A stretch of 64,000 nucleotides of DNA from the NCBI RefSeq assembly GCF_002025255.2, contig NZ_CP054587.1:1054001-1118000 (forward strand), written 5' to 3'. The position numbers and the translations under genes are program-made. Below the pieces are notes generated by a model that searched no databases, was not told the DNA's origin, and saw nothing but the letters and a program-made list of their open reading frames with translations. The DNA comes from Halolamina sp. CBA1230. Its GTDB lineage: Archaea; Halobacteriota; Halobacteria; Halobacteriales; Haloferacaceae. Positions 11,165 through 57,660 of the stretch are shown one piece after another (within the stretch, counting starts at the first letter, position 1; every line of letters begins with the position of its first letter).

Positions 11165-11200
11165 TCGCGTGTTCTCTGCACTCCACTGTTGCCGACGGCC

Positions 11201-11210
11201 CAGTAAAAGG
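11201..11210 (-). promoter_or_regulatory. TATA-like box of tRNA-Leu(GAG)
   Basis: On the minus strand this reads CCTTTTACTG, centred about 42 bases before the tRNA 5' end, which allows a start about 16 bases upstream of the mature tRNA. Confidence 0.45.
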
Positions 11211-11323
11211 GCTTCCTTTTGGCGTCGCCGTCGGGCGACGAGATCGTCCGCGGTCACGCGGGCAGGCGAACGGCGCCGTGCCGTCGCCACACGTTTCTTG
11301 CTCCGTCGGCTCAACCGTCCGGT

Positions 11324-11887
11324 ATGAACGTCCGTGCAACCGTCCGCGACCACACGCTCGGGACGGCGACGATCCTCTCGGCGGTCTCGCTCGCGCTGGT
11401 GTTCGCCGCCGCGCTGCGTGTCGTGCCCGCCGAGACACTGCCCCGTGCGCCGTCGACCGTCGTCGACGCCATCCCGCACCTGAACGCGGTGATCAGCGCC
11501 GCCGCGTTCGTCACCATCGTCGCCGGCGTCCGGGCGATCCGGCGGGGGGACGTCGAGCGCCACCGGAAACTGATGGGTGCCGCGTTCGGCCTGTTCGCCA
11601 CCTTCCTCGTCGCCTACCTCTACCGCGTCGCGCTCGTTGGGCCGTCGGAGTTCCCCGGATCGGGGCTGCTCGAGACGATCTACCTCGCGATCCTCGGGAT
11701 CCACATCACGCTCGCGGTGGTCTGCGTGCCGCTGGTGTTCTACGCGCTGCTGCTTGCGTGGAGCCACCCCGTCTCGGCGATCCCGGAGACGAACCACCGG
11801 AAAGTCGGGAAGGTCGCGGCGCCGCTGTGGGCGACCTCGTTCGCGCTCGGCGTGGTGGTGTACCTGCTGCTCTACGCCGTCGCCTGA
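11324..11887 (+). CDS. DUF420 family membrane protein
   Basis: 187 residues with about five membrane helices. The pattern HLNAVISAAAFVTIVAGVRAIRRGDVERHRKLM, with histidine-containing loops, and later GIHITLAVVCVPLVFYALLLAW is characteristic of DUF420, a heme-copper-oxidase-associated membrane family. I take the ATG at 11324 because it opens directly before the first charged/hydrophobic segment; the open frame extends further upstream without a better start. No oxidase gene is nearby, so its partner cannot be named from context. Confidence 0.8.
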   Translation: MNVRATVRDHTLGTATILSAVSLALVFAAALRVVPAETLPRAPSTVVDAIPHLNAVISAAAFVTIVAGVRAIRRGDVERHRKLMGAAFGLFATFLVAYLYRVALVGPSEFPGSGLLETIYLAILGIHITLAVVCVPLVFYALLLAWSHPVSAIPETNHRKVGKVAAPLWATSFALGVVVYLLLYAVA

Positions 11888-12433
11888 CTACGTCCACCGC
11901 GGCGTCGCTCGTTCTGCGCCGCAGTCGGGACAGACTACGACGGTCTCTCCCTCGTCCTCGCCCGACGCGACCTGCATCTCCTCGCGTTCACACGCCGGGC
12001 AGCCCCGCGTTCGATGCTCGCCGCCGCAGTCCGGACACGCGAGCAGCGCTTCGCCGTCCCGCCACTCCGGGGAGAGCCCACGGTGGCCACAGTCCGGACA
12101 GTCAAGCGGGACGCGCACCGCCTCGCTCCCCTTTGGCGCGCCGACCGCGAGCACCGTAGCCGACGAATCACCCTCGTTCGCGCCGGTCTGGTACTCGCCG
12201 GGCGCGAACCGGACCGCCTCGCCGGCGTCGACGACGACCGGCTCAGAGAGCGTCTCGAACGTCACCGTGCCGTCGAGGACGAGGAACACCTCCTCCTGGT
12301 CGAGATGCGTGTGGAGGCCGCTCGGAAGCCCCTCGCCGGGCGCCAGTCGGTAGCGGTTGATCGCTACGTCGGTCGTGCCCAGCGCGTCCGAGAGCGACTT
12401 GCGGGGGGCGTCGTTCGAAGCGAACGTCTGCAT
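11888..12433 (-). CDS. Cupin domain fused to a multi-zinc-ribbon tail
   Basis: A 181-residue protein. Residues 1-105 form a cupin with the metal-site motif HTHLDQEE (H41, H43, E48) and GEAVRFAPGEYQTGAN. Residues 110-175 hold four CxxC pairs (C112/C115, C133/C136, C145/C148, C168/C171), enough for two zinc ribbons. The ATG at 12433 (MQTFASNDAPRKSL) is chosen because upstream in-frame codons lack cupin-like content. The cupin half may bind a small ligand. The zinc tail could mediate nucleic-acid or protein contact; this is inference. It converges on the DUF420 gene with no gap. Confidence 0.75.
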   Translation of the reverse strand: MQTFASNDAPRKSLSDALGTTDVAINRYRLAPGEGLPSGLHTHLDQEEVFLVLDGTVTFETLSEPVVVDAGEAVRFAPGEYQTGANEGDSSATVLAVGAPKGSEAVRVPLDCPDCGHRGLSPEWRDGEALLACPDCGGEHRTRGCPACEREEMQVASGEDEGETVVVCPDCGAERATPRWT

Positions 12434-12545
12434 GCGTTGGCGGTCTGCGCGGTTCGAGAAATCGTTTGTGCCGTCACCAGAAATCAGCGATTTCTGGTTG
12501 GCGAACGAGAGTCGCCGGCTCTCGTTAACGGCGGGATCAGTCGCC

Positions 12546-12570
12546 CTCACCGGCTCTTCCTGCCGGCGAG
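12546..12570. repeat. 25-bp palindromic element, copy 1
   Basis: Arms CTCACCGGC and GCCGGCGAG (one mismatch) around a 7-base loop (TCTTCCT), ending 2 bp from the purF stop codon. The surrounding 40 bp (12541-12580) match 34 of 40 bases at 36232-36271. Copy 3 is at 20057-20081. Confidence 0.6.
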
Positions 12571-12571
12571 A

Positions 12572-14053
12572 TCAGTCGTCGGCCACGACGGCGCCGTCGA
12601 TATCCGGCCGCGTCACGTCGCGGTCCGTCTCCTCGCCGTCGATGTCGTAGGGGTACTCCCCCGTCACACAGCCCAGACAGAGGTCCGCGCGGGACTCGCC
12701 CAGCACCTCGGCGACGCCGTCGACCGAGAGGTACGCCAGCGAGTCGGCGCCGACCGTCTCGCGGATCGCCTCGGTGTCCTGCCCGGCCGCGATCAGCTCC
12801 TCGCGGGAGGCCATGTCGATCCCCATGTAGCAGGGCGCGAGGATCTGCGGCGCGCCGATGCGGAGGTGGACCTCCTCCGCCCCGGCCTCCTCCAGCAGCG
12901 AAACGAGCTGTGTCGACGTGGTCCCGCGGACGATGCTGTCGTCGATCAGCGTCACCGACTTCCCCTCGACCGTCGAGCGGATCGGGTTGAGTTTGAGGCG
13001 GACCGCCTGCTCGCGCTGATCCTGGGAGGGCATGATGAACGTTCGACCGACGTAGCGGTTCTTCATCAGCCCCTCCGCGAACTCCGGCGCGTCGTCGCCG
13101 AGGTCCTCGGTCGCGGCCTCCGCGTACCCCGTCGCGAACGCCCGGCCGGAGTCGGGGACCGGCATCACCACGTCGCTCTCGACGCCCGACTCCGCCCAGA
13201 GCCGCGCGCCGAGGTCGCGGCGGGTGTCGTAGACGAGTTCCTCGTCGATCACCGAGTCCGGCCGCGCGAAGTAGACGTGCTCGAAGAAGCAGTGGGCGGT
13301 GTGCTCCTGCTCGACCAGCTGGTAGCTGTCGTACCCCGTGCCGTCGGGGTCGAGCAGGACGAGTTCGCCCGGCCGCACGTCCCGGATCAGCTCCCCCCCG
13401 AGCGTGTCGATCGCCGCCGACTCCGAGGCGAGCACGTAGCCGTCGTCGAGCTTCCCGAGACAGAGCGGGCGGTTCCCCTGGGGGTCCCTGATCCCGAGCA
13501 CGGTCTCGTCGTGCATCACCGTCAGCGCGTAGGAGCCGTGGACTCGGTCCATCGTGCGCTTGACTGCGCGGACGAGATCGGCGTCGAGCAGATTGCGGGC
13601 GAGGTCGTGGGCGATCACCTCGGTGTCGCCGTCGGAGGTGAACGCGTGGCCCTCGCCGGCCAGCTCCTCGCGGATCTCGCCGGCGTTGACCAGGTTCCCG
13701 TTGTGCGAGAGCGCGAGCGAGCCTGAACGGAAGGAGACGGTAAAGGGCTGTGCGCAGGCTTTGTCGACGCTTCCCGCGGTGGGGTAGCGGACGTGTCCCA
13801 CGCCGGTCGAGCCCTGGAGCCCGTCGAGATCCTCCTCCTCGAACGCCTCGCCGACGAGCCCCATCTCGACGTGGTCGTGCTGCTGGAACCCGTCGTGGGT
13901 GACGATCCCTGCCGACTCCTGCCCGCGGTGCTGGAGCGCGTACAGGCCGTAGTAACAGGGGTGGGCGGCCCCGCGGTCCTCGAGCGCGATACCGACCACG
14001 CCGCACTTCTCTCGCATCCCGCCGGTCGGCCCTTCGGCCGAACCCTCGTGCAT
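12572..14053 (-). CDS. purF: Amidophosphoribosyltransferase
   Basis: First committed step of purine synthesis: PRPP plus glutamine gives phosphoribosylamine. The 493-residue protein starts MHEGSAEGPTGGMREKCGVVGIAL; Cys17 would become the N-terminal nucleophile after removal of a 16-residue propeptide. The Ntn glutaminase domain shows YGLYALQHRGQESAG and GHVRYPTAG. The phosphoribosyltransferase domain has the PRPP loop VTLIDDSIVRGTTS. Earlier in-frame starts exist, but the ATG at 14053 gives the usual haloarchaeal N-terminus. It lies downstream of the LSm-L37e pair, a known archaeal neighbourhood, with a 198-bp gap. Confidence 0.95.
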   Translation of the reverse strand: MHEGSAEGPTGGMREKCGVVGIALEDRGAAHPCYYGLYALQHRGQESAGIVTHDGFQQHDHVEMGLVGEAFEEEDLDGLQGSTGVGHVRYPTAGSVDKACAQPFTVSFRSGSLALSHNGNLVNAGEIREELAGEGHAFTSDGDTEVIAHDLARNLLDADLVRAVKRTMDRVHGSYALTVMHDETVLGIRDPQGNRPLCLGKLDDGYVLASESAAIDTLGGELIRDVRPGELVLLDPDGTGYDSYQLVEQEHTAHCFFEHVYFARPDSVIDEELVYDTRRDLGARLWAESGVESDVVMPVPDSGRAFATGYAEAATEDLGDDAPEFAEGLMKNRYVGRTFIMPSQDQREQAVRLKLNPIRSTVEGKSVTLIDDSIVRGTTSTQLVSLLEEAGAEEVHLRIGAPQILAPCYMGIDMASREELIAAGQDTEAIRETVGADSLAYLSVDGVAEVLGESRADLCLGCVTGEYPYDIDGEETDRDVTRPDIDGAVVADD

Positions 14054-14251
14054 ACCCGTCCGTCGGGAACGCGGAACCAAAAACCCCCGCTATCGTGCTG
14101 TATCGTTGCCGGAAACACGCCAGGATATTCAGGGACGTGCATATCGATGGGCGGCGCGGCGATCGTGCTCTCCGGCTCGGGGAGCGTCGACGGTGCGAAA
14201 GCTACCGCTGGGTCGTCGGGAGAACGGCGGAGAAGATCGGAGCGAGAGCCG

Positions 14252-14428
14252 TCAGTTGTCGCCGCTTTTCGACTGCCACTCGTAGTCGCGTCGCTTCGCG
14301 GACTTCCCGAAGCCACAGGACGAGCAGACCTTCTTCTTCGTGTGGTAGGATTTCTCGCCGCAACGGCGACATTTCGTGTGGGTCGTGTTGTTCTTCTTCC
14401 CTTGGCTGGGTGTTCCTGCGCCGGTCAT
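14252..14428 (-). CDS. rpl37e: Ribosomal protein L37e (eL37)
   Basis: A 58-residue basic zinc-finger protein of the large ribosomal subunit. Starts [20 protein letters not shown]. Zinc ligands are Cys20, Cys23, Cys35 and Cys38 (CRRC and CSSC), ending [13 protein letters not shown]. The start overlaps the LSm stop by 4 bp, so translation is probably coupled. Confidence 0.96.
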
Positions 14429-14655
14429 AGAGTTACCGAAACGACGTTGTCGCCACGGATAATCGTTGTGTTGTCCACTTCCTCGACGTCGAGTTCGCCC
14501 AGCACGGCGTCGCTCGCGTCGGCGGGTTCGAGCACGACGTTCATGTGCTGGTCGTAGCCCGAGAGGTTCCCGTAGAAGGACTTGCCGTCCTTCAGATGGA
14601 CCGTCACCGGCTCCGAGAGCGACTCCTCGAGCACGTCGAGCGGGCGTCCACTCAT
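14425..14655 (-). CDS. lsm: LSm (Sm-like archaeal) RNA-binding protein
   Basis: Forms a heptameric ring that binds U-rich RNA. The 76-residue protein has the Sm1 motif ([26 protein letters not shown]) and Sm2 motif ([12 protein letters not shown]). The ATG at 14655 gives [11 protein letters not shown]; a GTG two codons earlier is less typical. It is directly coupled to rpl37e, the known archaeal LSm-L37e gene pair. Confidence 0.95.
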
Positions 14656-14740
14656 GGTCACCCAAACCCCGGTGCCGGAAATAAACGTACCGAACCGCCG
14701 GCGCCGCGTGGCTCGTTCCGGGAGTGGCCGCCGGGCCGTC

Positions 14741-15544
14741 TCACTCCAGCGTGCCGACCGCCTCGGCGGCGTAGCCGAAGATGTCGTCGTACCCCTCCGC
14801 CGAGAGGAGCACGGGGTAGAACGGCTCGTCGGCGGTCAAGGCCTCGCCGTCGGCGATCGCGAACCGCTCGCCGGCCTCGACGCGCTCGAAGTTGGGGACC
14901 ACCACGTCGTACTCCCGGCCCGGCGGTTTGGCGATGGGGCCGTCGAGACGGAACACCTCGACCTCGCCGCGTTCGGGCTGGGCCAGCCGGTCGTCCACCG
15001 CCGGCACGGACAGCGCGTTCGCCGCCGCGAGGAACGCTCGGGTCAACCAGTAGGCGTTCTCTGCGGCCTCATCGGTCCCCTGGAGGCCACACTCCATCTC
15101 GATGGTGTGGGCGTACTCCACCAGCCGGCCGTCGGTGTAGTTGTCGGTCTCGATCAGCACGTCCACGGGGAGCAACGGCGCGAACGAGCGCGCGATCTCG
15201 TCGACGGTGTCGATCACCGCGATCGGTTCGGCGTAGGACTGCGTGGAGTGGAGCGCCAGCACCGTACAGTCCTGTACCTCCCGAGCGAGTTCGCGGGCGA
15301 GCCGCGACTCGTGGGTATCCCCCTCGGGATCGCCCGGGAACACGCGGTTGAGGTCCGCTTCGAGGAACCGCTCGCCAGCCTCGAGCGCCTCCTCGTTGGC
15401 GATGATCAGCTTCACCGGTCGGTCGACGTCGGGCTCCTCGGCGAGGAGTCGCTCGACCGCCCGCACCCCACACGGCTCGTCGCCGTGGATCCCGGCGACG
15501 ACGGCCAGCTCGGGTTGGCCCTCACCCAACTGGTGGATCTGCAT
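14741..15544 (-). CDS. Succinylglutamate desuccinylase/aspartoacylase-type zinc hydrolase
   Basis: A 267-residue M14-fold amide hydrolase. The N-terminal zinc motif is GIHGDEPCG with H20 and E23, followed by RFLEADLNRVFPGD (the Arg/Asn substrate region) and a later His in TVLALHSTQ as the third ligand. A C-terminal beta domain follows. The ATG at 15544 (MQIHQLGEG) is preferred over the open frame nine codons upstream. Family members deacylate N-acylated amino acids; the actual substrate is not deducible. No arginine-catabolism genes lie nearby. Confidence 0.82.
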   Translation of the reverse strand: MQIHQLGEGQPELAVVAGIHGDEPCGVRAVERLLAEEPDVDRPVKLIIANEEALEAGERFLEADLNRVFPGDPEGDTHESRLARELAREVQDCTVLALHSTQSYAEPIAVIDTVDEIARSFAPLLPVDVLIETDNYTDGRLVEYAHTIEMECGLQGTDEAAENAYWLTRAFLAAANALSVPAVDDRLAQPERGEVEVFRLDGPIAKPPGREYDVVVPNFERVEAGERFAIADGEALTADEPFYPVLLSAEGYDDIFGYAAEAVGTLE

Positions 15545-44937: not shown

Positions 44938-45348
44938 CTATTCGCCGTGCTGAACGGACAGCACCACCGCCTCGCCGTCGATCACCGTTTTCGCGCCGTC
45001 CCCGTCGACAGCTTCGGCGACCGTCTCGACGCGCACGCGGTCGTCGCCCAGCTCCTCGACGACCGCCACGCTCGCCCGCACCGTGTCGCCGGGGCGTACC
45101 GGCGCCTCGAACGCGAGGTCCTGCGAGAGATAGACGATGTCGCCCGGGAGCGATGCGAGCGCGGCGCTGATCAGCCCCGCACCGAGCATCCCGTGGGCGA
45201 CGATCCCGCCGAAGAAGCCCTCCGCGGCGTACTCGGTGTCGGTGTGGAGCGGGTTCTCGTCGCCGGTGAGGTCGGCGTACTCCCGGATCGTCTCCTCGGT
45301 CACGTCGCGCTGTACTTCGGCATCGTCGCCGACGGTCGCAACGGGCAT
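44938..45348 (-). CDS. MaoC-like enoyl-CoA hydratase
   Basis: 136 residues forming a hot-dog fold. The hydratase-2 motif is YADLTGDENPLHTDTEYAAEGFFGGIVAHGMLGAGL, with the catalytic Asp (TGD) and His (NPLH). It hydrates trans-2-enoyl-CoA to (R)-3-hydroxyacyl-CoA. The ATG at 45348 (MPVATVGDDAE) is used; upstream codons are a GC-rich leader. It is divergent from the alpha/beta hydrolase, with the TTCA-N4-TGAA palindrome between. Likely part of the acyl-CoA locus that follows. Confidence 0.88.
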   Translation of the reverse strand: MPVATVGDDAEVQRDVTEETIREYADLTGDENPLHTDTEYAAEGFFGGIVAHGMLGAGLISAALASLPGDIVYLSQDLAFEAPVRPGDTVRASVAVVEELGDDRVRVETVAEAVDGDGAKTVIDGEAVVLSVQHGE

Positions 45349-45386
45349 ACCCCGACGGAGTCCCGGCGGCACCGTAGCTGCCCCGG

Positions 45387-45398: not shown

Positions 45399-45436
45399 TA
45401 CGGGCCTTGATAGCCCGGGAGCGACATCTGCCGGGT

Positions 45437-46243
45437 ATGCCGACCGCACACAACGGCGACGTGGCGCTGGCCTACGACCGCGAGGGGCCGCGCGACGCGC
45501 CGACGGTGGCCTTCGTCGAAGGGCTCGGGTACGGGCGATGGATGTGGCAGTTCCAGCGCGACCCCCTCTCGGAAGCGTACGACACGATCGTGTTCGACAA
45601 CCGCGGGACCGGGGAGTCCGACTGCCCGGAGGGGCCGTACACGATCGCCGAAATGGCGGGCGACCTCGACGCGGTGCTCGACGACGCCGGCGTCGAGTCG
45701 GCCCACGTCGTCGGCGCGAGCATGGGCGGGATGATCGCCCAGCGCTACGCGCTCGACTACGACCGCGCCGAGTCGCTGGCACTGCTCTGTACCTCCCACG
45801 GCGGCGAGGACGCGGTGCCGGTCCCGCCGGAGACGCAGGCGTTCATGTTCGACGTGCCCGAAGACGCCGACGAGCGCGAGGAGATCCGGTACAAGATGAC
45901 GCCCGCGATCTCCGACGGGTTCGCCGAGGCGAGCCCGGACCTGCTCGAGGACATCGTCGACTGGCGGCTGGACTCCGACGCGAGCGAGGCCGGGCGGAAC
46001 GCTCAGGCTGCTGCTGTGCAGGCGTTCGACGCCGCCGCGGAGCTCGACGACCTGACGCTCCCGACGCTGCTCATGCACGGCACCGACGACGAGGTGCTGC
46101 CCGTCGAGAACGCCCACGCGCTCGCGGACCGACTCCCCCACGCGGAGCTCGAACTGTTCGAGGGCGGCCCGCACCTCTTCTTCGTCGAGCAGGCCGACGC
46201 CGTCACCGACCGGCTCCGGAGCTTCCTCGATTCGCATGCCTGA
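45437..46243 (+). CDS. Alpha/beta hydrolase
   Basis: 268 residues. The nucleophile elbow is GASMGG with Ser95, the acid is in LLMHGTDDEVLPVENA and the catalytic His in EGGPHLFFVE. The oxyanion-hole region FVEGLGYGRWMW resembles 3-oxoadipate enol-lactonase-like and carboxylesterase members. It may release a free acid from an ester or lactone that the next gene activates to a CoA thioester (inference). Its stop overlaps the acyl-CoA ligase start by 8 bp. Confidence 0.86.
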   Translation: MPTAHNGDVALAYDREGPRDAPTVAFVEGLGYGRWMWQFQRDPLSEAYDTIVFDNRGTGESDCPEGPYTIAEMAGDLDAVLDDAGVESAHVVGASMGGMIAQRYALDYDRAESLALLCTSHGGEDAVPVPPETQAFMFDVPEDADEREEIRYKMTPAISDGFAEASPDLLEDIVDWRLDSDASEAGRNAQAAAVQAFDAAAELDDLTLPTLLMHGTDDEVLPVENAHALADRLPHAELELFEGGPHLFFVEQADAVTDRLRSFLDSHA

Positions 46244-47837
46244 GGGGTTCTCGCCGGTCCACGGCCACAGCTCCCGCCCGTACGACTGGGTCGGCGCGTG
46301 GAGCGAGAAACGGGCGGAGCTCTCGCCCGACCGCGTGGGGCTCGTCGACGACACGACCGGCCGGGAGTTCACGTACGCCGACCTCGACGCCCGCGCGAAC
46401 CGGACCGCGCGGCTGCTCCGCGACCACGGCGTCGCCGAGGGCGGGCGCGTCGCGGTCGTCTCACGGAACCGCCCAGCGCTGGTGGACCTCTTTTTCGCCT
46501 GCGGGAAAACCGGGGGCGTGCTCGCGCCGCTCTCGCACCGACTCGCCGCGCGGGAACTCGGCGAACTGCTCCTCAACGTCGACCCGGAACTGCTCGTCGT
46601 CGAGGCACCGTTCGTCGAGCCCGTCGAGGACGCGCTCGCCCGCGTCGACGTGGGAACGACGGTTCACGCGCTGCCCGCGGCGGAGGACGAACGGGACGAC
46701 GTGGACGACCACCCCTCCCTCCTCGAGGAGCGCCCGGCGGACGACTCCCCCGTCGAGACGGCCGACCTCGCGATGGACGACCCGGCGCTGTTCCTCCACA
46801 CCGGCGGCTCGACCGGCACCCCGAAGGAGACCGTGCTGACCCACGGCGGCCTGCTCTGGAACTCATTCAACACGATCACGGCGTGGGGGCTGCGCGAGGA
46901 CGACACCACGCCGATGGTGTTCCCGATGTTCCACACCGGCGGCTGGAACGTGCTCACGCTCCCGCTGTTCCACATGGGCGGGACGGTCGTGATCGCCCGG
47001 GAGTTCGACCCCGGCGAAGTGCTCCACCTCGTCGAGGAGACGAACGCCTCGGTGCTCGTCGCGGTGCCCGCGGTGCTGCGGATGATGACCGAACACGACG
47101 ACTGGGAGACTACGGACCTCTCGACGCTCCGCTTCGCGAAATCGGGCGGTGGCCCGTGCCGCGACGCGGTGCTGCGGGCGTGGTGGGACCGCGGCGTCGA
47201 CCTCTCGCAGGGGTACGGGCTGACCGAGTGCGGGCCGAACAACTTCACGATGCCCGACGGCTGGCCCCGCGAGAAGGCTGATAGCGTCGGCGTGCCGGCG
47301 ATGCACGTCGACGCCCGCGTGGTCGACGATTCGGGCGAGGAGGTCGAGCAGGGCGAGGTCGGCGAACTCGAACTCGCCTCCCCGCACGCGGCTGATCGCT
47401 ACTGGGCGAACGACTCGGAGACACGCGGCACCTTCGGCGCGACGGGCGACGCCGACCACGGTTGGGTCTCCACGGGCGACCTCGTGCGCGTCGACGAGGC
47501 GGGGTACTACTCCATCGAGGGCCGGAAGAAGAACATGTTCGTCTCCGGCGGCGAGAACGTCTACCCCGCCGAGGTGGAGAACGCGCTCACCGACCACCCC
47601 GAGGTCGACGAGGCGGTCGTGATCCCGATCCCCGACGAGACGTGGGGCGAGGTGGGGAAGGCGGTGGTCGTCGGCGACGAGTCGCTGACGCTCTCGGAGC
47701 TGACGGAGTTCTTGGATGGTCGGCTGGCGTCGTTCAAACACCCGAAAGCGCTGGCGTTCGTCGAGGAGATGCCGACCTCCGGGCCGTCGAAGATCGACCG
47801 GAGCGCGGTGGACGAGCGGTTCGGGGAGTCGGAGTAA
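46236..47837 (+). CDS. Acyl-CoA synthetase (AMP-forming ligase)
   Basis: 533 residues. P-loop motif LFLHTGGSTGTPKE (186-198), then GYGLTECGPNNF (A5), STGDLVRVDEAGYYSIEGRKKNMFVSGGENVYPAEVE (A8) and the catalytic Lys region GPSKIDR (A10), all in ANL-superfamily order. It activates a carboxylic acid through an acyl-adenylate. The substrate length is unknown, but the medium/long-chain fatty-acid or aromatic-acid group is likely. The ATG at 46236 overlaps the hydrolase gene. Confidence 0.92.
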   Translation: MPEGFSPVHGHSSRPYDWVGAWSEKRAELSPDRVGLVDDTTGREFTYADLDARANRTARLLRDHGVAEGGRVAVVSRNRPALVDLFFACGKTGGVLAPLSHRLAARELGELLLNVDPELLVVEAPFVEPVEDALARVDVGTTVHALPAAEDERDDVDDHPSLLEERPADDSPVETADLAMDDPALFLHTGGSTGTPKETVLTHGGLLWNSFNTITAWGLREDDTTPMVFPMFHTGGWNVLTLPLFHMGGTVVIAREFDPGEVLHLVEETNASVLVAVPAVLRMMTEHDDWETTDLSTLRFAKSGGGPCRDAVLRAWWDRGVDLSQGYGLTECGPNNFTMPDGWPREKADSVGVPAMHVDARVVDDSGEEVEQGEVGELELASPHAADRYWANDSETRGTFGATGDADHGWVSTGDLVRVDEAGYYSIEGRKKNMFVSGGENVYPAEVENALTDHPEVDEAVVIPIPDETWGEVGKAVVVGDESLTLSELTEFLDGRLASFKHPKALAFVEEMPTSGPSKIDRSAVDERFGESE

Positions 47838-48963: not shown

Positions 48964-49824
48964 CTACTCGTACGTCCCCACCATCCCGCCGTCGAACAGC
49001 AGATCCCCGCCGTTGAGGTGTTTCGCGTGCCGCGAGAAGCCGAACACGAACAGGTTCGCCACCTCGACGGGGCTCATCATCCGTTTCGTCCGTGACTGGC
49101 CGAGCATCACGTCCTCGACGACCTCCTGCTCCGTGAGGCCGCGCTGCTCGGCCGTCTCCGGGATCTGGCCCGTCACCAGCGGCGTCGAGACGTACCCCGT
49201 CGAGACCGAGAACGCCCGGACGGTTCCCTCCCCCTCCGCGGCGAGGGACTGCGTGAGCCCGCGGAGCCCGAACTTGCAGACGTTGTACGCCACCTTGTCG
49301 CTCGTGGTGTAGTGACCGTGGACCGACGCCATGTTGCCGACGGCGCCGCCGCCCGCCTCGTGGATGTGCGGGAACGCGTGCTTGGCCAGCAGCGTGGGCG
49401 CGCGGAGCATCACCGCTTGCATCAGGTCGTACTGCTCGGCCGGGAACTCCTCGATCGACGCGACGTGCTGCAGGCCGGCGACGTTCGCGAGGAAGCGCAG
49501 GTCGCCGTAGTCGGCCGCGGTCTCGACGATCCGTTCGATGTCGCTGTCGTCGGTCAGGTCCCCTTCGATCGTGTGGACCGCGCCGTCGGCGTCGAACTCC
49601 GCCGCGCGGTCGACGGTGCCGGCGAGCCCGTCGGCGTCCACGTCCGTCGCGGCGACGGTGCAGCCGTTGGCCGCGAGCGCGACCGCGACGGCGTGGCCGA
49701 TCCCCGACGCCGCGCCGGTCACGAGCGCGACCGAGTCGGCGGCGTAGCGGTCGTCGTCGACGTCGAGGACGTTCGCGGCGGTGAGGTCCGGGCCGTCGGT
49801 GCCCGGGGCGGGGTCGTCGGTCAT
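48964..49824 (-). CDS. Short-chain dehydrogenase/reductase, 3-hydroxybutyrate-dehydrogenase-like
   Basis: 286 residues. Cofactor motif TGAASGIG (36-43), then LRFLANVAGLQH as the NAG-type motif, and the catalytic Ser and Tyr-x-x-x-Lys in SVHGHYTTSDKVAYNVCK. Around NVAG, RFLAN and SLAAEG it resembles 3-hydroxybutyrate dehydrogenases, suggesting oxidation of a 3-hydroxy acid or its CoA ester (inference). The first 30 residues are an acidic extension. It is divergent from the Bat-like regulator, with the palindrome at 49861-49878 between. Confidence 0.86.
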   Translation of the reverse strand: MTDDPAPGTDGPDLTAANVLDVDDDRYAADSVALVTGAASGIGHAVAVALAANGCTVAATDVDADGLAGTVDRAAEFDADGAVHTIEGDLTDDSDIERIVETAADYGDLRFLANVAGLQHVASIEEFPAEQYDLMQAVMLRAPTLLAKHAFPHIHEAGGGAVGNMASVHGHYTTSDKVAYNVCKFGLRGLTQSLAAEGEGTVRAFSVSTGYVSTPLVTGQIPETAEQRGLTEQEVVEDVMLGQSRTKRMMSPVEVANLFVFGFSRHAKHLNGGDLLFDGGMVGTYE

Positions 49825-49945: not shown

Positions 49946-50647
49946 ATGATCGACATCGCACTCGATATGCGGCAGTACGACTGCCCGTTCATCGACACGA
50001 CCGACGACGCCGAGCTGAGCTTCGCCGCCTCCTACTGGGAGTTCAACCCTGCGGCGGAGAAGCTCGAGACGCGAATGGTCGTGGAGGCGCCGGACCGCCA
50101 CGAGCTCGATCAGGGGCTGTCGATGCTGCGTGAGCATCGGGGGATGGAGGGGTTCGACCTGCTCGCCAAGCGCGACGGCGCGGCCCGCATCCGGACGACG
50201 ATCCAGGAGACCAGCGCGATGAGCACGATCCGGCAGAACGACGGCTACGTCACCGGCCCGTTCTACATCGAGGACGGCCGCGAGACGTGGCACGTCGGCT
50301 TCGACAACCACGGGCTCGCCGACGGCGCGCTCGCCGGGCTCGAGCGCAACAACGATTTCTCGGTGCTCTCCCGCCAGGACACCAGCATCCCGGAGATCTC
50401 CGAACTCATGAGCAACGCCGGCGCGGCGATGACGCTGATCGACGGCTGCCGGGAGCTCTCCGAGACCGAGCGCGAGACGCTCGAGACCGCGGTCGACGGC
50501 GGCTACTTCGAGAGCCCGCGGGGTGCGACGCTGGGCGATCTGGCCGACGAGTTCGACGTCTCCAAGCCCGCAGCGTCGAAGAACCTCCGCCGCGCGGAGC
50601 GGAAGCTCATCGCCCGCGCCGTCGACGCGATCGAGGACCTGGAGTAG
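49946..50647 (+). CDS. HTH_10 (bacterio-opsin-activator-like) regulator
   Basis: 233 residues. The N-terminal beta-rich sensor part resembles the BAT-type domain (IDIALDMRQYDCPFIDTTDDAELSF). The C-terminal HTH_10 domain has LSETERETLETAVDGGYFESPRGATLGDLADEFDVSKPAASKNLRRAERKL, the family hallmark. The start at 49946 is used; an upstream ATG pair at 49923 opens only an 8-codon ORF. It probably controls the surrounding acyl-CoA/ABC genes; this is inference from position. Confidence 0.87.
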   Translation: MIDIALDMRQYDCPFIDTTDDAELSFAASYWEFNPAAEKLETRMVVEAPDRHELDQGLSMLREHRGMEGFDLLAKRDGAARIRTTIQETSAMSTIRQNDGYVTGPFYIEDGRETWHVGFDNHGLADGALAGLERNNDFSVLSRQDTSIPEISELMSNAGAAMTLIDGCRELSETERETLETAVDGGYFESPRGATLGDLADEFDVSKPAASKNLRRAERKLIARAVDAIEDLE

Positions 50648-50705: not shown

Positions 50706-50724
50706 AGAGCCCCACAATGAGGAC

Positions 50725-52065
50725 ATGGCGCGAAAGCTATCGCGGCGGGGGCTGCTCCGAGCGACGGGGGTAGCCGGCGTCGCCGGACTCGCTGGCTGTA
50801 CAGACGCACTGAGTGGCGGGAGCGGCATGAGCATCGGCGTGCTCCAGCCCCTGTCGGGCGACCTGAGCTACTACGGCGACCAGGCGCTGTGGGGCTTTTT
50901 CTCCGGGCTGGCGTACAAGGGCGACAGTGACCCGATCGGGGAGGCGAGCACCGGGACCCACACCGCCACCGTCGGCGACACCGAGTACGAACTGATCGTG
51001 CGCGACACGGGGTTCAGCGCCGACACCGCCCAGTCGGCGGCGACCGACCTCGTGGAGAACGAGGACGTCGACATGCTGTTCGGCACCGCCTCCTCCAGCG
51101 CGGCCACCCGTGTGATCGACACCGTCGTCGACACCGCGGACGTGCCGTTCATGGCCGGACCCGCGGCGTCGGCAGGGATCTCCTCGAACGAGGGGACCTG
51201 TTCGGATATCGTGTTCCGGGCCTCCGAGAACACGGCGATGGACGCCCGCTCGGGCGGCCAGTACGTCGCCAACGAGACCGACATCTCGTCTGTGTACCTG
51301 TTCGGCGCCGACTACTCCTTCGGCCGCGCGGTCGTCAACAACTACGAGCAGGTGCTCTCGAACAACGGCGTCGAGATCCTCGACAAACGGTTCGTCCCGC
51401 AGGGGTACAGCGAGTGGGACGGCCTGCTCCAGAACGCCGAGGACGCGGGCGCCGACGGCGTCGTCGGCGGCTTCACGGTCTCGACGCTCCCGCAGATGTT
51501 CACGTCCTACCTGCAGGGCGACTACAGCTACTCGGTGTTCGGTGGCCTCGCGACGCGAGTCACCAGCAACGTGGTGGGACAGACGCTCCAGCAGGCGCTC
51601 GGCGAACCCCTCACCCAGGAGAAGCTCGACAACTCCGGGCTCGGCCCGTTCACGACCCGCTACCACTGGAACCAGTACGACAACGAGATCAACAGCTCGT
51701 TCGTCGAGACGTACACCGACGCCTACGGCGTGGTGCCGGACCTGTTCTCCTCGGGGACGTTCACCGCCGCCTCCGCGATCGTCCAGGCGGTCGACGCCTC
51801 GGGCTCCACGGGCGGCGCCGACGTGGCGGAGGCGCTCCGGGGCATGACCGTCACGGACACGCCGAAAGGCGAGGACGGCTACACGTTCCAGGAGTACAAC
51901 AACCAGGCCCGCTCGGCGATGACGGTCGCCAACCTCGCACCCACCAGCGACGAGTGGAGCGACAGCTGGGGTGCGGCGATCCAGCCCGGCGAGCCGCTGG
52001 CGACGATCGACAAGGATGAGACCACGATCCCCGCCGACGCGCCGGGGATGAACTGCTCGCTGTAG
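50725..52065 (+). CDS. Substrate-binding lipoprotein of a branched-chain-amino-acid-type ABC importer
   Basis: 446 residues. The twin-arginine-type leader MARKLSRRGLLRATGVAGVAGLAGC ends with a lipobox LAGC (Cys25), so it would be exported folded and lipid-anchored outside the cell. The mature part is the ANF-receptor/LivK fold (SIGVLQPLSGDLSYYGDQALWG, VDMLFGTASSSAATRV, YSFGRAVVNNYEQ). It is first of five transporter genes. The ligand is not readable; the neighbourhood points to an organic acid rather than an amino acid (inference). Confidence 0.9.
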   Translation: MARKLSRRGLLRATGVAGVAGLAGCTDALSGGSGMSIGVLQPLSGDLSYYGDQALWGFFSGLAYKGDSDPIGEASTGTHTATVGDTEYELIVRDTGFSADTAQSAATDLVENEDVDMLFGTASSSAATRVIDTVVDTADVPFMAGPAASAGISSNEGTCSDIVFRASENTAMDARSGGQYVANETDISSVYLFGADYSFGRAVVNNYEQVLSNNGVEILDKRFVPQGYSEWDGLLQNAEDAGADGVVGGFTVSTLPQMFTSYLQGDYSYSVFGGLATRVTSNVVGQTLQQALGEPLTQEKLDNSGLGPFTTRYHWNQYDNEINSSFVETYTDAYGVVPDLFSSGTFTAASAIVQAVDASGSTGGADVAEALRGMTVTDTPKGEDGYTFQEYNNQARSAMTVANLAPTSDEWSDSWGAAIQPGEPLATIDKDETTIPADAPGMNCSL

Positions 52066-52866
52066 ATGCTCCGCACCGCCGGACTGACCAAGAACTTCGG
52101 CGGCCTCACCGCCGTCGACGACGTCGACTTCCGGCTCCGCGAGGGGGAGCTCTGCTCGCTGATCGGCCCCAACGGCGCCGGCAAGACGACGTTCTTCGAC
52201 CTGCTGACCGGCGCGCTCGAGCCTTCGGACGGCGAGATCGAACTCCGCCGGGACGGCGGGTGGGAGTCGCTCACCGGCGCCACCCCGGCCGAGGTCGCAC
52301 AGGCGGGGGTCCACCGGTCGTACCAGATAACGAACGTGTTCCCCGAGCGGACTGTGCTCGAGAACGTCCGCGTGGCCGCACAGGCCGCCGGCGAGAACGC
52401 CTGGCGGGGGTGGCGCAACACCGCGACGTTCGAGGAGCACGTCGAGGAGGCCCACCGCATCCTGGACCGCGTCGGCCTGGACGCGCTGGCCGAACGCCCG
52501 GCGAGAGCGCTCTCCCACGGCGAGAAACGCCAACTGGAGGTCGGTATCGCGCTCGCGGGCGATCCCGACGTGCTGCTGCTCGACGAGCCCAACGCGGGCG
52601 TCTCCAGCGAGAGCGTCGACGACATCATCGACCTGATCGCCGACGTGGCGACCGACCACGCGGTGCTGCTGGTCGAGCACAACATGGACATCGTGATGAA
52701 CGTCTCCGACCGCATCGTCGTGCTGAACCAGGGCGCCGTCATCGCCGACGACGAGCCCGCGGCCGTCCGGGGCGACCCTGACGTACAGCGGGCGTACCTC
52801 GGCGGGTACGGTGACGGGGACAGTACCGACGAGGACTCGACCGACGAGGAGGTGGCGGGCGCGTGA
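52066..52866 (+). CDS. livG: ABC transporter ATP-binding protein, LivG type
   Basis: 266 residues. Walker A GPNGAGKTTFFDLLTGAL, the LivG-type TNVFPERTVLENVRVAAQ insertion, signature LSHGEKRQLEVG and Walker B DVLLLDEPNAG. The H-loop is VEHNMDIVM. The start directly abuts the preceding stop. The C-terminus ends with a short acidic tail. Confidence 0.92.
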   Translation: MLRTAGLTKNFGGLTAVDDVDFRLREGELCSLIGPNGAGKTTFFDLLTGALEPSDGEIELRRDGGWESLTGATPAEVAQAGVHRSYQITNVFPERTVLENVRVAAQAAGENAWRGWRNTATFEEHVEEAHRILDRVGLDALAERPARALSHGEKRQLEVGIALAGDPDVLLLDEPNAGVSSESVDDIIDLIADVATDHAVLLVEHNMDIVMNVSDRIVVLNQGAVIADDEPAAVRGDPDVQRAYLGGYGDGDSTDEDSTDEEVAGA

Positions 52867-53561
52867 GCCTGCTCGAACTCGACGGCGTCGAGACGTACTA
52901 CGGCGAGAGCCACATTCTCGAGGGCGTCGACCTCGAAGTGGCGGAGGGCGAGGTGGTCGCGCTGATGGGCCGCAACGGCGTGGGGAAGACCACGACGCTG
53001 CGGAGCATCCTCCAGCTCACCCCGCCCCGCGAGGGGTCGATCCGCTACCGGGGCGAGGAGCTGGTCGGCAAGGAGACCCACGAGGTCGCCGACGCCGGCG
53101 TCGGCTGGATCCCCGAGGACCGCCGGATGTTCAGCCAGCTGACCGTCGAGGAGAACGTCCGTATCGCCGTCCCGAAGGGGGATGACGTCGAGGCGGGGCT
53201 CGACCTCGCCTGGGACGCGTTCCCCGACCTCGCGGAGATCAGCGACCGTCACGCCGGCGACCTCTCGGGCGGGCAGCAGCAGATGCTCGCCATCGCCCGC
53301 GGGCTGGTCGGCGGGAACGACCTGCTGCTGGTCGACGAGCCCAGCGAGGGGCTCGCGCCGCTGATCGTGGAGGCCGTCCACGACGCGCTCGAGGCGGCCG
53401 CCGGCGAGACGACGATCCTGCTGGTCGAGCAGAACCTCCCGATGGCGCTCGACCTCGCGGACCGGTTCTACGTACTGGACCACGGCGTCGTCGTCGACAG
53501 CGGCGACGCCGACGAGGTGTCGACCGACTCCGAACGGCTCAGGAGGCATCTCTCGGCATGA
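52863..53561 (+). CDS. livF: ABC transporter ATP-binding protein, LivF type
   Basis: 232 residues from a GTG overlapping the preceding gene by 4 bp. Walker A GRNGVGKTTTLRSILQL, the LivF-typical GWIPEDRRMFSQLTVEENV, signature LSGGQQQMLAIARGL and Walker B DLLLVDEPSEGLAP. The H-loop is VEQNLPMAL. Confidence 0.92.
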   Translation: MSLLELDGVETYYGESHILEGVDLEVAEGEVVALMGRNGVGKTTTLRSILQLTPPREGSIRYRGEELVGKETHEVADAGVGWIPEDRRMFSQLTVEENVRIAVPKGDDVEAGLDLAWDAFPDLAEISDRHAGDLSGGQQQMLAIARGLVGGNDLLLVDEPSEGLAPLIVEAVHDALEAAAGETTILLVEQNLPMALDLADRFYVLDHGVVVDSGDADEVSTDSERLRRHLSA

Positions 53562-54571
53562 CGGGGAGCGTCCTCGCGCCGCTGCTCGTCGACGCGCTGG
53601 GGGAGTTCCTCCGGCCCGGGACGCTGTCGGAAGTGTTCGTCAACGGGCTCTCGAAGGCCGCGCTGTACGCGATGATCGCCAGCGGGCTGACGCTGGTGTT
53701 CGGGCTGCTGGGCGTACTCAACTTCGCCCACGGCTCGTTCACCATGCTCGGCGCGTACCTCGGCGGGCTGGTGATGGTGGTGCTGGTCGGGAGCGCGACG
53801 GGCGACCTCGCCCGCGTGCTGTTCTTCCTACTCGGCACGCTGATCGTGTTCGCCGCGATCGGCGCGCTGGGCGGCGCCGTCGAGGTGGGGTTGATCCGCC
53901 AGCTGTACGACCGCCCGCCGATCTACCAGATCCTCCTCACGTTCGGGGTCGCGCTGGTGCTCGACGAGGCGGCCCGCATCCTGGTCGCGTTCTACGGCAT
54001 CCAGCCGATCACCGACTGGCGCGCGGCGCTGGGCACCAAGCCCGCGTTCATGGTCGAGAACATCGAGTTCGCCGGCCTGACGGTCGCGCCGCTGGCGCTG
54101 TTCCAGATCGTCTTCGGCGTCGTCACCATCGGCGCGGTCTGGCTGTTCCTCACCCGGACCCGCTACGGGATGGTGGTCCGGGCCGGCAGCGAGGACGACG
54201 AGATGACCGCCGCGCTGGGGATCGACGTGAACCGCGTGTTCACGACCGTGTTCGCGCTCGGCTCCGCGGTCGCCGGCGTCGCCGGCATGCTGCTGATGTG
54301 GGACCCCGTCTGGGGGGCGAGCCTCCCGCTGGCCCACGAGACGCTGCTGCCCGCGTTCGTCGTCGTGATCGTCGGTGGCCTCGGCACGTTCCGGGGTACC
54401 GTCGTCGCGGCCGGGCTCGTGGGGATGGTCGACGCGACGATGACCTGGTGGTTCCAGAACGCGATCACGTTCACCGGCCTCCCCGAGATGATGATCTTCC
54501 TCGTGCTCGTGCTGACGCTGATCGTGCGGCCACAGGGACTGTTCGGCGTCGAGGAGGTGGGTGGCCATTAG
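53558..54571 (+). CDS. livH: ABC transporter permease, LivH type
   Basis: 337 residues with about eight membrane helices. LivH-type motifs are seen (NGLSKAALYAMIASGLTLVFGLLGVLNFAHGSF; GMVVRAGSEDDEMTAALGIDVNRV). The start overlaps livF by 4 bp and the end overlaps livM by 11 bp. Confidence 0.9.
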   Translation: MTGSVLAPLLVDALGEFLRPGTLSEVFVNGLSKAALYAMIASGLTLVFGLLGVLNFAHGSFTMLGAYLGGLVMVVLVGSATGDLARVLFFLLGTLIVFAAIGALGGAVEVGLIRQLYDRPPIYQILLTFGVALVLDEAARILVAFYGIQPITDWRAALGTKPAFMVENIEFAGLTVAPLALFQIVFGVVTIGAVWLFLTRTRYGMVVRAGSEDDEMTAALGIDVNRVFTTVFALGSAVAGVAGMLLMWDPVWGASLPLAHETLLPAFVVVIVGGLGTFRGTVVAAGLVGMVDATMTWWFQNAITFTGLPEMMIFLVLVLTLIVRPQGLFGVEEVGGH

Positions 54572-55895
54572 CTCCCCTGCTGCCGACGCCGGTGAGGAGT
54601 CCGACCCGGCCGCGCCCGAGGAGAACAGCATCGCGGCCGCCAGCGGGGGCGAGTGGTGGCGCCGCTACCTCCGCGAGCACACCGCCCACGCGCTCGTGGT
54701 CGGGGCGCTCGCACTGTACCCGTTCGTCTACGCGCTGCTCGTCGCGTCGCCGCTGGGGACCGAGGCCGAGACGCTGCTCCCCCGCGTCGAGACGATGGTC
54801 GGCGTGTTCTACTTCGGCCTGTTCGCGATGTCGTTCGACTTCGTCTCGGGCTACACCGGCTACCTCTCGTTCGGCCACGCGATCTTCTACGGTACGGGCG
54901 CGTACTTCGTCGTGCTCGCGGCCAACGGGCAGGTGCCGCTGCTCGCGCCGGGGACGCCGTTCATGCTCCTGCTGCTGATCGGGGGGATGCTCGCGGTCGT
55001 CGTCGCGCTGGCGATCGGCGCGCTCTCCTTCCGGCTCTCGGGGGTGTATTTCGCGATGATCACGCTCGGGTTCGCCCAGGTCGCGTACGTGTTCGTCCGC
55101 GGCTGGGACTACGTGAGCGAGAACCCACAGGACGGCGCCGCGGTGTCGACGGAGATGCACCCCGGCGGCTTCGACATCGGGGTTCCCGGGATCGACGCGC
55201 TCAACCTCGCGATCGGCCGACTGACCGGCGACAGCATCGACCTACTGTTCGTCGAACTCGGCGGGACCGAGGTGTCGTACTACATGGTCGGGCTGGTGGT
55301 GCTGGGCTGCTACCTCGCGATGCAGCGGCTGATCCACTCCCCGTTCGGTACGGTGCTGCTGGCGATCCGCGAGAACGAGGAGCGCGCCGAGGCGGTCGGC
55401 TACGACCCGTTCCGGTTCAAGCTGGCGGCGTTCGCGATCAGCGGCTTCTTCGCCGCGATCGCGGGCGGGCTGTTCGCCGGCTTCCGGCGCTCGGTCGCCC
55501 CCGACAACTCGATGTACTTCCTCGTCACCGGCGACGCGCTGCTGGCGTCGATCATCGGCGGGTTCGGCACGCTCGCCGGGCCGCTGTACGGCCGGCTGTT
55601 CGACGAGACCGTCCGGGAGTTCCTCTCGAAGCGGGGGTCCGGCGGCGGGCTACTGCCGTACCTCCGGGAACACCTGCCGGCGGGCGTGATCGAGGCCGAC
55701 CTCGTGGGCGGGCTCACGGTTGGCGGCGCAATCGAGACGTTCCTCAACGGCCACGCCAGCCTCTACGTCGGCGTGATCTTCGTGCTGTTCGTGCTGTACG
55801 TCCCGAACGGCCTGCTCGGCACCGTCCGTGACCGCCTCGGCGGCACGGTCGCGAAACAGCTCCCGGACTACCTCGACCGGTACCGCCGCGACTGA
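54561..55895 (+). CDS. livM: ABC transporter permease, LivM type
   Basis: 444 residues from a GTG at 54561. About ten membrane helices. LivM motifs FDFVSGYTGYLSFGHAIFYGTGAY, LSGVYFAMITLGFAQ and GTVLLAIRENEERAEAVGYDPFRFKLAAFAISGFFAAIAGGL. An inserted hydrophilic loop of about 50 residues near 255-345 (RLFDETVREFLSKRGSGGGLLPYLREHLPAG) is longer than usual. Confidence 0.9.
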   Translation: MAISSPAADAGEESDPAAPEENSIAAASGGEWWRRYLREHTAHALVVGALALYPFVYALLVASPLGTEAETLLPRVETMVGVFYFGLFAMSFDFVSGYTGYLSFGHAIFYGTGAYFVVLAANGQVPLLAPGTPFMLLLLIGGMLAVVVALAIGALSFRLSGVYFAMITLGFAQVAYVFVRGWDYVSENPQDGAAVSTEMHPGGFDIGVPGIDALNLAIGRLTGDSIDLLFVELGGTEVSYYMVGLVVLGCYLAMQRLIHSPFGTVLLAIRENEERAEAVGYDPFRFKLAAFAISGFFAAIAGGLFAGFRRSVAPDNSMYFLVTGDALLASIIGGFGTLAGPLYGRLFDETVREFLSKRGSGGGLLPYLREHLPAGVIEADLVGGLTVGGAIETFLNGHASLYVGVIFVLFVLYVPNGLLGTVRDRLGGTVAKQLPDYLDRYRRD

Positions 55896-55923: not shown

Positions 55924-56937
55924 ATGACCGTCTCACTCACCGGCTACGGCCGCGACGTACCGCAGGAAACCATCACGGGCGAGGAGATCGCCGACCGCTC
56001 GGGGATCCCCGAGGACGTGGTCGTCGAGAAGATGGGCGTCGCCGAGAAACACGTCTGCCCGTCCGACGACGACCACGCCACCGACATGGGCGTCGCCGCG
56101 GCCCGCGACGCGCTCGCCGACGCCGGGGTCGACGCCACCGACGTGGAGCTGGTGCTGTACCACGGCTCGGAGTACAAGGACCACGTCGTCTGGTCGGCCG
56201 CCGCGGACATCGCCGACCGACTCGGCGCCGAGAACGCCTACGCAACCGAGAGCTACTCGCTCTGTGCCGGCCAGCCGATCGCGCTCCGGCAGGTCGCCGC
56301 ACAGATCGAAGCCGGCGACGTGGGGACGGCGCTGCTCGTGGGCGCCAGCCGCGAGGAGGACCTCGTGGACTACACCGACGCGGACGCCTCGTTCATGTTC
56401 AACTTCGGTTCGGGGGCGTGTGCGACCGTGCTCGAACGCGGCGCCGGCGAGCGCGCGCTCGCGACGGTCCACGGCCACGCCGCGAAAACCGACGGCTCGT
56501 TCTCGCGGGACGTGATCATGCCCGCCGGCGGCTCCGAGCTCCCGCCCAGCGCGACGACCGTCGACGAGGGGCTGCACACGCTGACGGTGCCCGACCCCGA
56601 CGGGATGAAGGAGCGGCTGGGCGAGGTGAGCCTCGCGAACTTCCTTGCCGTCGCCGACGACGCGCTCGCCGAATCGGGGCTGACCCGGGAGGATATCGAC
56701 TTCGTCGCGCTCACCCACATGAAGCGCTCGTTCCACGAGTACCTCACCGACGAACTGGGCGTCGGCGACGGCCACCATTACCTCGACGAGTACGGCCACG
56801 TCCAGAGCGTCGACCAGGTGCTCGCGCTGGACGAGGGGCTGGAACGCGGGCTGGTGGAGGACGGCGACGTGGTGCTGTTCCTGGCGGCGGGGACGGGGTA
56901 CACCTGGGCGGCGAGTGTGCTGCGCTGGGTCGACTGA
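55924..56937 (+). CDS. KAS III-like (thiolase-superfamily) condensing enzyme
   Basis: 337 residues of the 3-oxoacyl-ACP synthase III / HMG-CoA synthase fold. The active-site cysteine is Cys114 in TESYSLCAGQP. His265 lies in VALTHMKRS. Where FabH has the Asn of GN(T/S), this protein has His292 (YGHVQSVDQ), so the classical Cys-His-Asn triad becomes Cys-His-His. HMG-CoA synthase instead uses a Glu, which I do not find. It lies 28 bp after livM, so it is in the transporter operon, an unusual place for such an enzyme. Confidence 0.82.
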   Translation: MTVSLTGYGRDVPQETITGEEIADRSGIPEDVVVEKMGVAEKHVCPSDDDHATDMGVAAARDALADAGVDATDVELVLYHGSEYKDHVVWSAAADIADRLGAENAYATESYSLCAGQPIALRQVAAQIEAGDVGTALLVGASREEDLVDYTDADASFMFNFGSGACATVLERGAGERALATVHGHAAKTDGSFSRDVIMPAGGSELPPSATTVDEGLHTLTVPDPDGMKERLGEVSLANFLAVADDALAESGLTREDIDFVALTHMKRSFHEYLTDELGVGDGHHYLDEYGHVQSVDQVLALDEGLERGLVEDGDVVLFLAAGTGYTWAASVLRWVD

Positions 56938-57127: not shown

Positions 57128-57181
57128 ATGAGCACCTTCAGCCAGAGGCTCAACGGGGTGTACCAATGGCGGGGGAGTTAG
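57128..57181 (+). CDS. 17-codon ORF overlapping the orphan gene
   Basis: ATG with a good Shine-Dalgarno spacing encodes MSTFSQRLNGVYQWRGS and stops at 57181, overlapping the first 16 bases of the 57166 gene in another frame. It could be a leader peptide with coupled translation, or the real N-terminus of the next gene before a frameshift. Confidence 0.3.
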   Translation: MSTFSQRLNGVYQWRGS

Positions 57182-57660
57182 ACGTTCGAGACGTTTCAGT
57201 GGTGTATAGTAGTCAGATATGGAGGCTCACGAAGAAGAATATCGCAGTTGCAACGGGAATAACGGGCGACGGCCGACATGTACAGGGTATCGGGACGAGC
57301 CGATGGTCGGGAGATACGGCGATGGATGGAGCAATCGAGAACCTCAAAGAGAACGCCAGAACGAGAGATTTCTCGTTTCAAATCGTTGCGCTGGAAGGCG
57401 GATACGCAAACGTTCGTATCGAATTTCTGGATGAACAGGGGATCTACCGAACAACGGGCTCAACACGGGGGTTAACCGCAAACAAGCGGGTTGAAGTCAA
57501 CGCATCGAAAGAAGGGAGGAGTGTGAGCGCGAATAACGATGAGAGCGGGTTCTCGTTGGAGAATGTTGGATTCGGTCGGCGAGATTGGTCGGAGATGCTC
57601 GACGGCGCATTAGACTCCGCCGAATCGAGACTTGACCGCGTCGGTACCACCTCTGTTTAA
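57166..57660 (+). CDS. Orphan protein in a lower-GC island
   Basis: 164 residues, soluble, mixed composition and less acidic than neighbours (MAGELDVRDVSVVYSSQIWRLTKKN, then GITGDGRHVQGIGTSRWSGDTAMDGAIENLKENARTRDF). A Gly-rich middle is followed by predicted strands. I do not recognise the family. GC content is far below the window average and codon use is different, consistent with recent transfer. GGGGTG (57155-57160) is a fair ribosome site for the ATG at 57166. Confidence 0.65.
   Translation: MAGELDVRDVSVVYSSQIWRLTKKNIAVATGITGDGRHVQGIGTSRWSGDTAMDGAIENLKENARTRDFSFQIVALEGGYANVRIEFLDEQGIYRTTGSTRGLTANKRVEVNASKEGRSVSANNDESGFSLENVGFGRRDWSEMLDGALDSAESRLDRVGTTSV

Follow-up and report, generated by a model that had tools for sequence, protein, structure and literature searches.

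CerJ, ChlB3 and DpsC, the described enzymes with which the present locus is compared, are to our knowledge known only from actinobacterial antibiotic pathways. For the KAS III-like acyltransferases CerJ and ChlB3, both of antibiotic natural-product pathways, one source gives ChlB3 the triad Cys113-His296-Asp301 and reports the CerJ mutants C116A, C116S and H295N as inactive and D301A as 0.3% active (PMC9573744). The class of DpsC, a priming ketosynthase of daunorubicin biosynthesis in Streptomyces, differs between the two sources: it is counted as Ser-His-His in one, with His266 placed in the active site and pointing where His297 does (PMC9573744), and as Ser-His-Asp, an AT-like triad S118-H297-D302, in the other (PMC12664062), where extending ketosynthases are described as Cys-His-His. 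DpsC acylates itself and hands acyl groups to its ACP, and it also condenses (PMC9573744, PMC12664062); since the structural relatives of ChlB3, CerJ excepted, likewise catalyse Claisen condensation (PMC9573744), a triad of this type leaves carbon-carbon bond chemistry possible.

The window analysed here, a 64,000-nucleotide stretch of the Halolamina sp. CBA1230 genome, carries a KAS III-like gene whose predicted active site can be placed alongside these enzymes residue by residue. The gene and the positions within it are as follows:

55924-56937, + strand: KAS III-fold protein of 337 aa (PRK06840 family), a predicted CoA-thioester-dependent acyltransferase-type enzyme (ORF, Pfam, NCBIfam, AlphaFold2, fold search)
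56170-56193, + strand: Glu83 to Trp90, a family-specific loop (conservation, alignment with HMG-CoA synthase, pLDDT)
56263-56265, + strand: codon of Cys114, the predicted nucleophile, aligned with FabH Cys112, ChlB3 Cys113 and DpsC Ser118 (conservation, residue-level alignment)
56716-56718, + strand: codon of His265, aligned with DpsC His266 and one residue past the FabH His244 column (conservation, alignment)
56797-56799, + strand: codon of His292, opposite FabH Asn274 and aligned with ChlB3 His296 and DpsC His297 (conservation, alignment)
56812-56814, + strand: codon of Asp297, predicted to complete a Cys-His-Asp triad and aligned with ChlB3 Asp301 and DpsC Asp302 (conservation, alignment)

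The ATG lies 28 bases downstream of the end of livM, and the start residue agrees with the starts of the nearest relatives, the closest of which were found in Halolamina at about 90-91% identity. The protein matches Pfam ACP_syn_III and ACP_syn_III_C, and is the only ACP_syn_III_C match in its genome. It belongs by sequence to NCBIfam NF005308/PRK06840, which it matches over residues 1-336 at 405 bits (cut-off 315); the functional label of this family, “3-oxoacyl-ACP synthase”, finds no support in the present data. Other models of the superfamily score below their cut-offs, namely the fabH model TIGR00747 (124.8 bits against 292.1), the archaeal HMG-CoA synthase models TIGR00748 (44.1 bits, cut-off 353.35) and NF003274 (67.4 bits, cut-off 244), and Pfam Thiolase_N (17.7 bits, cut-off 26.4). 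An AlphaFold2 model built from 49 sequences reached a pLDDT of 92.1 and a pTM of 0.91, and FabH and other KAS III structures occupy the highest ranks of the fold search; the 50 entries listed by VIA-align include FabH, BioZ, PqsC, PqsD and other KAS III proteins at Z 37.1-39.5 over 306-324 residues, with Z 38 to E. coli FabH. CerJ, ChlB3 and DpsC are absent from the 50 entries listed, which has no bearing on their similarity in fold.

Four phylum searches retrieved a PRK06840 member over the NCBIfam cut-off in 46 of 990 genomes: 15 of 294 in the phylum of Halolamina sp. CBA1230, 25 of 301 in that of a Chloroflexi genome, 4 of 195 in that of a deltaproteobacterial genome and 2 of 200 in that of Vulcanisaeta. 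The family gene is plasmid-borne in 10 haloarchaeal records (Halobaculum, n=8; Salarchaeum; Halomicrococcus) at 68-78% identity, a location that suggests that the gene can move among haloarchaea. In Vulcanisaeta sp. JCM 14467 (L049, approximately 8000-8960) and in Halovenus rubra (L028, approximately 8001-9017), a mutation or a sequencing error has broken the gene into pieces that lie in different reading frames or separate open stretches. Further, a second KAS III-like paralogue (“KAS3b”) occurs near the family gene in L041 (13277-14257), L045 (11430-12407) and L126, and a further example, L133, came up as a weak family match; KAS3b keeps the Cys, has T-Q for the H-Q of FabH and GYTGS for its GN, and thereby lacks a His at both catalytic positions. 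It may be a partner subunit. Literature searches, some of them aimed at other subjects and with most subscription journals outside coverage, listed no paper on the PRK06840 family, and its name occurs in none of the papers covered.

For the analysis of conservation, rows were collected with a profile of the family itself at 200 bits or more; at least L067, L068, L129 and L132 are under the NCBIfam cut-off. Removal of identical rows, 15 fragments (10 of them partial matches to HMG-CoA synthase) and one duplicate from the query's own genome left 95 rows, of which 93, the query included, have the C-terminal part (two are without letters there) and fall into 35 clusters at 70% identity; the other rows are 29-92% identical to the query. 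All 93 proteins and all 35 clusters have His292, and the same holds for Asp297, five residues further on (93/93; 35/35); both are among the 11 invariant columns of a diverse alignment of 26 sequences. Position 114 is Cys in 89 of the 93 rows and Ser in four, position 265 is His in 89 and Gln in four, and Lys267 is kept in 92. Residue 264 is Thr (58), Leu (15), Asn (9), Val (8), Ile (2) or Ser (1), and never His. The rows with Ser for Cys114, as in DpsC, are L120, L122, L124 and L125, the last two having a Cys one residue later; by analogy with DpsC, this natural replacement would be in line with an acyltransferase-type triad.

An earlier note, made from the letters of this DNA, had described a KAS III-like enzyme with a Cys114-His265-His292 active site, in which His replaces the conserved Asn of FabH. 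Its KAS III identity is borne out by the Pfam and NCBIfam matches, the AlphaFold2 model and the fold search; the three residues are confirmed in the translation, and the alignments do put His292 in the column of FabH Asn274. The conservation of His292 among relatives, archaeal ones included, which the note had proposed as a check, extends to every row that has the C-terminal part. The site as it was drawn is nevertheless incomplete, as it missed the equally invariant Asp297, the likely triad partner. The comparison with HMG-CoA synthase was misplaced as well, for the archaeal HMG-CoA synthases keep GN at the position of His292 in 10 of 10 rows and differ from the present protein in this respect.

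The placing of His265 called for more care. In gap-free alignments with FabH, Thr264 lies opposite His244 and His265 opposite Gln245, which speaks against a simple equation of His265 with FabH His244; to conclude from this one-residue shift that His265 is non-catalytic would be too strong, given its alignment with DpsC His266. Since DpsC His266 is said to point where His297 does, His265 probably lies in the pocket, shifted by one residue relative to FabH.

Residue-level alignments, checked by letter, place S118, H266, H297 and D302 of DpsC on C114, H265, H292 and D297, so that all four active-site positions align. C113, H296 and D301 of ChlB3 (checked by letter, together with F266) fall on C114, H292 and D297, while ChlB3 differs in having Asn265 opposite His265. 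A 36-position profile around His292 has ChlB3 as its top PDB match, with H296 and D301 on H292 and D297 (segment GHLGASDQVVALDE in ChlB3 against GHVQSVDQVLALDE in the Halolamina protein), and by the coordinates of its profile match, provided that no gap intervenes, CerJ position 295 lies opposite His292. The profile of the C-terminal third of the family also matches CerJ, ChlB3 and DpsC, although FabH proteins score higher, and the score over the whole sequence favours FabH (88 bits, against 53 for ChlB3, 45 for CerJ and 31 for DpsC). Three Streptomyces KAS III matches (L135-L137), considered as candidate relatives of CerJ and DpsC, proved to be plain GN types in 3/3 cases. The protein shares with CerJ and ChlB3 a Cys nucleophile together with a His-x4-Asp in the region of the FabH Asn, and, as judged by alignment, its Cys114, His292 and Asp297 correspond to the acyltransferase-type triad published for CerJ, ChlB3 and DpsC. 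The earlier suggestion of acyl transfer agrees with the active sites of these three enzymes, the closest that have been published. The arrangement is not new, DpsC having been described as Ser-His-His or as a triad S118-H297-D302, and extending ketosynthases as Cys-His-His (PMC9573744, PMC12664062).

The annotated function, that of a 3-oxoacyl-ACP synthase III catalysing the decarboxylating condensation of acyl-CoA with malonyl-ACP, has in its favour the name of the NCBIfam family, the Pfam domains and a likeness to FabH in fold, length, nucleophilic Cys and C-terminal loop. It is disfavoured, and we regard it as most improbable, because the TIGR00747 score is well below the cut-off, the Asn of the FabH GN motif is His in all 93 rows (with Asp297 in place of a Ser) and the ACP family PF00550 was detected in 0 of 1 Halolamina sp. 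CBA1230 genome against 11 of 14 control genomes, a search that a very divergent ACP may escape. The invariance of His292 points to a chemistry other than the decarboxylating condensation of FabH, as far as residues can indicate it, and the label “3-oxoacyl-ACP synthase” is doubtful, as no ACP was detected by PF00550 in the genome. The same result bears on DpsC, which differs from the present protein in its Ser nucleophile and in belonging to a PKS with an ACP (PMC12664062).

If the residues of the earlier note are read literally, a Cys-His-His condensing enzyme working like KAS I/II results. Extending ketosynthases do use Cys-His-His (PMC12664062). The E. coli FabF sequence contains a TGHLLGAAG segment, the His of which would occupy the place of His292. 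This reading is nonetheless unlikely, in view of Asp297, whose invariance equals that of His292 and which fits the acyltransferase-type triad, of His265, which gives way to Gln in four rows while His292 is never replaced, and of the undetected ACP.

On the evidence assembled, we lean towards a KAS III-fold enzyme that carries out ping-pong acyl transfer through Cys114-His292-Asp297, with CoA rather than ACP thioesters as substrates; the order of the reaction, its geometry and the use of CoA are the parts of this account that we infer. Cys114 would be activated by His292, itself held by Asp297, and would be loaded with an acyl group from an acyl-CoA, the probable source of which is the neighbouring ligase acting on an acid imported by the LIV-type transporter. 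His292 would then activate an acceptor, which would take the acyl group off Cys114, while His265 would probably serve as a hydrogen-bond donor in the pocket, the role that has been proposed for His266 of DpsC.

The neighbouring genes listed here lie upstream of the KAS III-like gene:

44938-45372, - strand: MaoC-like hydratase (domain scan)
45407-46243, + strand: alpha/beta hydrolase, with PcaD as its best NCBIfam match, under the cut-off of that model (domain scan)
46236-47837, + strand: AMP-forming acyl-CoA ligase (AMP-binding, E 9.3e-78)
48964-49824, - strand: SDR dehydrogenase, with 3-hydroxybutyrate dehydrogenase as its best match, below cut-off (domain scan)
49946-50647, + strand: HTH_10 regulator ahead of the transporter genes (domain scan)
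50719-52065, + strand: LivK-type substrate-binding protein, start approximate (Peripla_BP_6, E 3.1e-55)
52066-53561, + strand: two ABC ATPases, LivG-like (52066-52866) and LivF-like (52863-53561), names which we presume from gene order (ORFs, conserved order in relatives)
53558-55895, + strand: two permeases, LivH-like (53558-54571, by ORF and order) and LivM-like (54561-55895, BPD_transp_2)

The KAS III gene follows the five LIV-type transporter genes in a head-to-tail run. A 164-aa ORF downstream (57166-57660) has no Pfam or NCBIfam match and, among the loci compared, was found in its own genome only. In 39 haloarchaeal loci, livM is immediately upstream of the family gene in 32 and present anywhere in 35, livK is present in 34, the HTH_10 regulator in 30, the acyl-CoA ligase in 28, MaoC in 10, and the hydrolase and the SDR in 9 each, with distant genes undercounted since many of these loci end 8 kb from the gene. 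Among 31 other regions of the family, from bacteria and other archaea, 24 have the ligase, 21 the alpha/beta hydrolase, 12 livK, 15 at least one of livK, livH and livM, and 6 each MaoC and the SDR. The controls, nine stretches surrounding bacterial FabH genes that all carry HQAN and GN (9/9), come from seven of the same bacterial genomes and contain none of the ligase, hydrolase, liv, MaoC or SDR genes (0/9 each) and a generic ABC ATPase in 1/9. The ligase is missing from seven of the 31 other regions (L153, L157, L158, L160, L161, L162 and L176), and six of these seven are without any other gene of the cluster, which counts against a fixed cluster. In L156, from the phylum of Vulcanisaeta, no LIV match was found, and a nearby MFS protein is related to aromatic-acid symporters (177 bits against a cut-off of 419). 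The LIV-type transporter, the ligase and the alpha/beta hydrolase are neighbours that haloarchaea and Chloroflexota often have in common. The neighbourhood would suit a route in which an organic acid is taken up and activated to its CoA ester. The OleABCD set (KAS III, hydrolase, AMP ligase and SDR) has a make-up similar to the cluster; no Ole model was recognised among the best 25 matches listed for the ligase or the SDR.

A different proposal is that the protein uses its KAS III scaffold for thiolase-like (retro-)Claisen chemistry; it would make or break carbon-carbon bonds with CoA thioesters and replace the thiolase in a pathway with the ligase, MaoC and SDR. MaoC and the SDR, absent from the controls, would suit a pathway resembling beta-oxidation; as neighbours, however, they are in the minority in both sets of loci. 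A region from the Chloroflexi phylum (L147, approximately 2160-14889) has, in collinear order, livM, livH, two ABC ATPases, livK, MaoC, the KAS III gene, an acyl-CoA ligase, a hydrolase, a 3-hydroxybutyrate dehydrogenase (over cut-off), a second ligase and a second hydrolase; this operon speaks for the thiolase-like proposal, and its run of genes hints at the use of a hydroxy acid. Cys114 and His292 would stand where thiolase has its nucleophilic Cys and the His of GHP, while the loop LAAGTGYTW, which we take to occupy the place of the second thiolase Cys, contains no Cys in the Halolamina protein. The Thiolase_N score below cut-off, and four matches to the thiolase family elsewhere in the genome, likewise weigh against this proposal, whereas DpsC, which has the same residues save Ser for Cys and condenses too, weighs for it (PMC12664062).

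In the loop from Glu83 to Trp90, four residues are conserved among the 93 rows (E83 in 77, K85 in 88, D86 in 82 and W90 in 90), and pLDDT falls below 50 at residues 85-88. HMG-CoA synthase works with CoA thioesters, and its catalytic Glu lies in an upstream GSE motif, with which Glu83 is aligned in a profile alignment; this motif is the likeness of the family to the archaeal HMG-CoA synthases. In the thiolase-like proposal, Glu83, like its counterpart in HMG-CoA synthase, could act as the base at C-alpha, although it is replaced in 16 of the 93 rows. PMC12664062 describes a cap loop, and by comparison with it loop 83-90 may act as a dimer cap that closes the pocket of the partner subunit. Taken together, we consider a thiolase-like function rather unlikely, though deserving of attention, and continue with acyl transfer as the preferred reading.

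The descent of the motif was examined in a tree of 57 rows from which the columns of the GH-x4-D motif had been removed; one FabH-type and two HMG-CoA synthase rows were omitted and CerJ is absent from it. The tree separates 39 GH-x4-D rows from 18 FabH, KAS3b and HMG-CoA synthase rows at 98/94, and the ChlB3/DpsC group joins the divergent rows L067, L068 and L129 at 99/96, with the branch of the query falling outside that group. In AU tests, the p-values of which are weakened as the groups were named after the tree had been seen, a placement of 25 family members with FabH was rejected (p 0.0002); two alternatives were not rejected, one that moves the ChlB3 group over to FabH (p 0.083) and one that unites all 28 PRK06840-like rows in one clade (p 0.13). 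From these sequence comparisons, a single origin of the GH-x4-D motif is favoured.

The type of chemistry proposed is already known from CerJ, ChlB3 and DpsC, with ChlB3 ranked first by the motif profile; those enzymes belong to antibiotic pathways, whereas the Halolamina gene lies in a cluster of transporter and CoA-ligase genes. What appears to be new is a family of archaea and bacteria, labelled as an “ACP synthase”, that has such a site, occurs in a genome without a detectable ACP (PF00550) and shares its transporter and ligase neighbours. It may tentatively be suggested, as a possibility we take seriously without expecting it, that KAS III has a large branch, apparently not yet studied, which occurs in haloarchaea and others of their phylum, in the phylum of Vulcanisaeta, and in bacteria, Chloroflexi among them. 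Its members would act on CoA thioesters through a Cys-His-His-Asp site, as part of a catabolic operon for uptake, CoA activation and acyl transfer or thiolysis, and CerJ, ChlB3 and DpsC would be a specialised offshoot of this older, ACP-independent metabolic enzyme. If the acyl-transfer reading is true, the present label would be wrong wherever the PRK06840 family occurs, the neighbouring genes would offer a direct route to the real substrate, and CerJ, ChlB3 and DpsC would gain relatives in ordinary metabolism.
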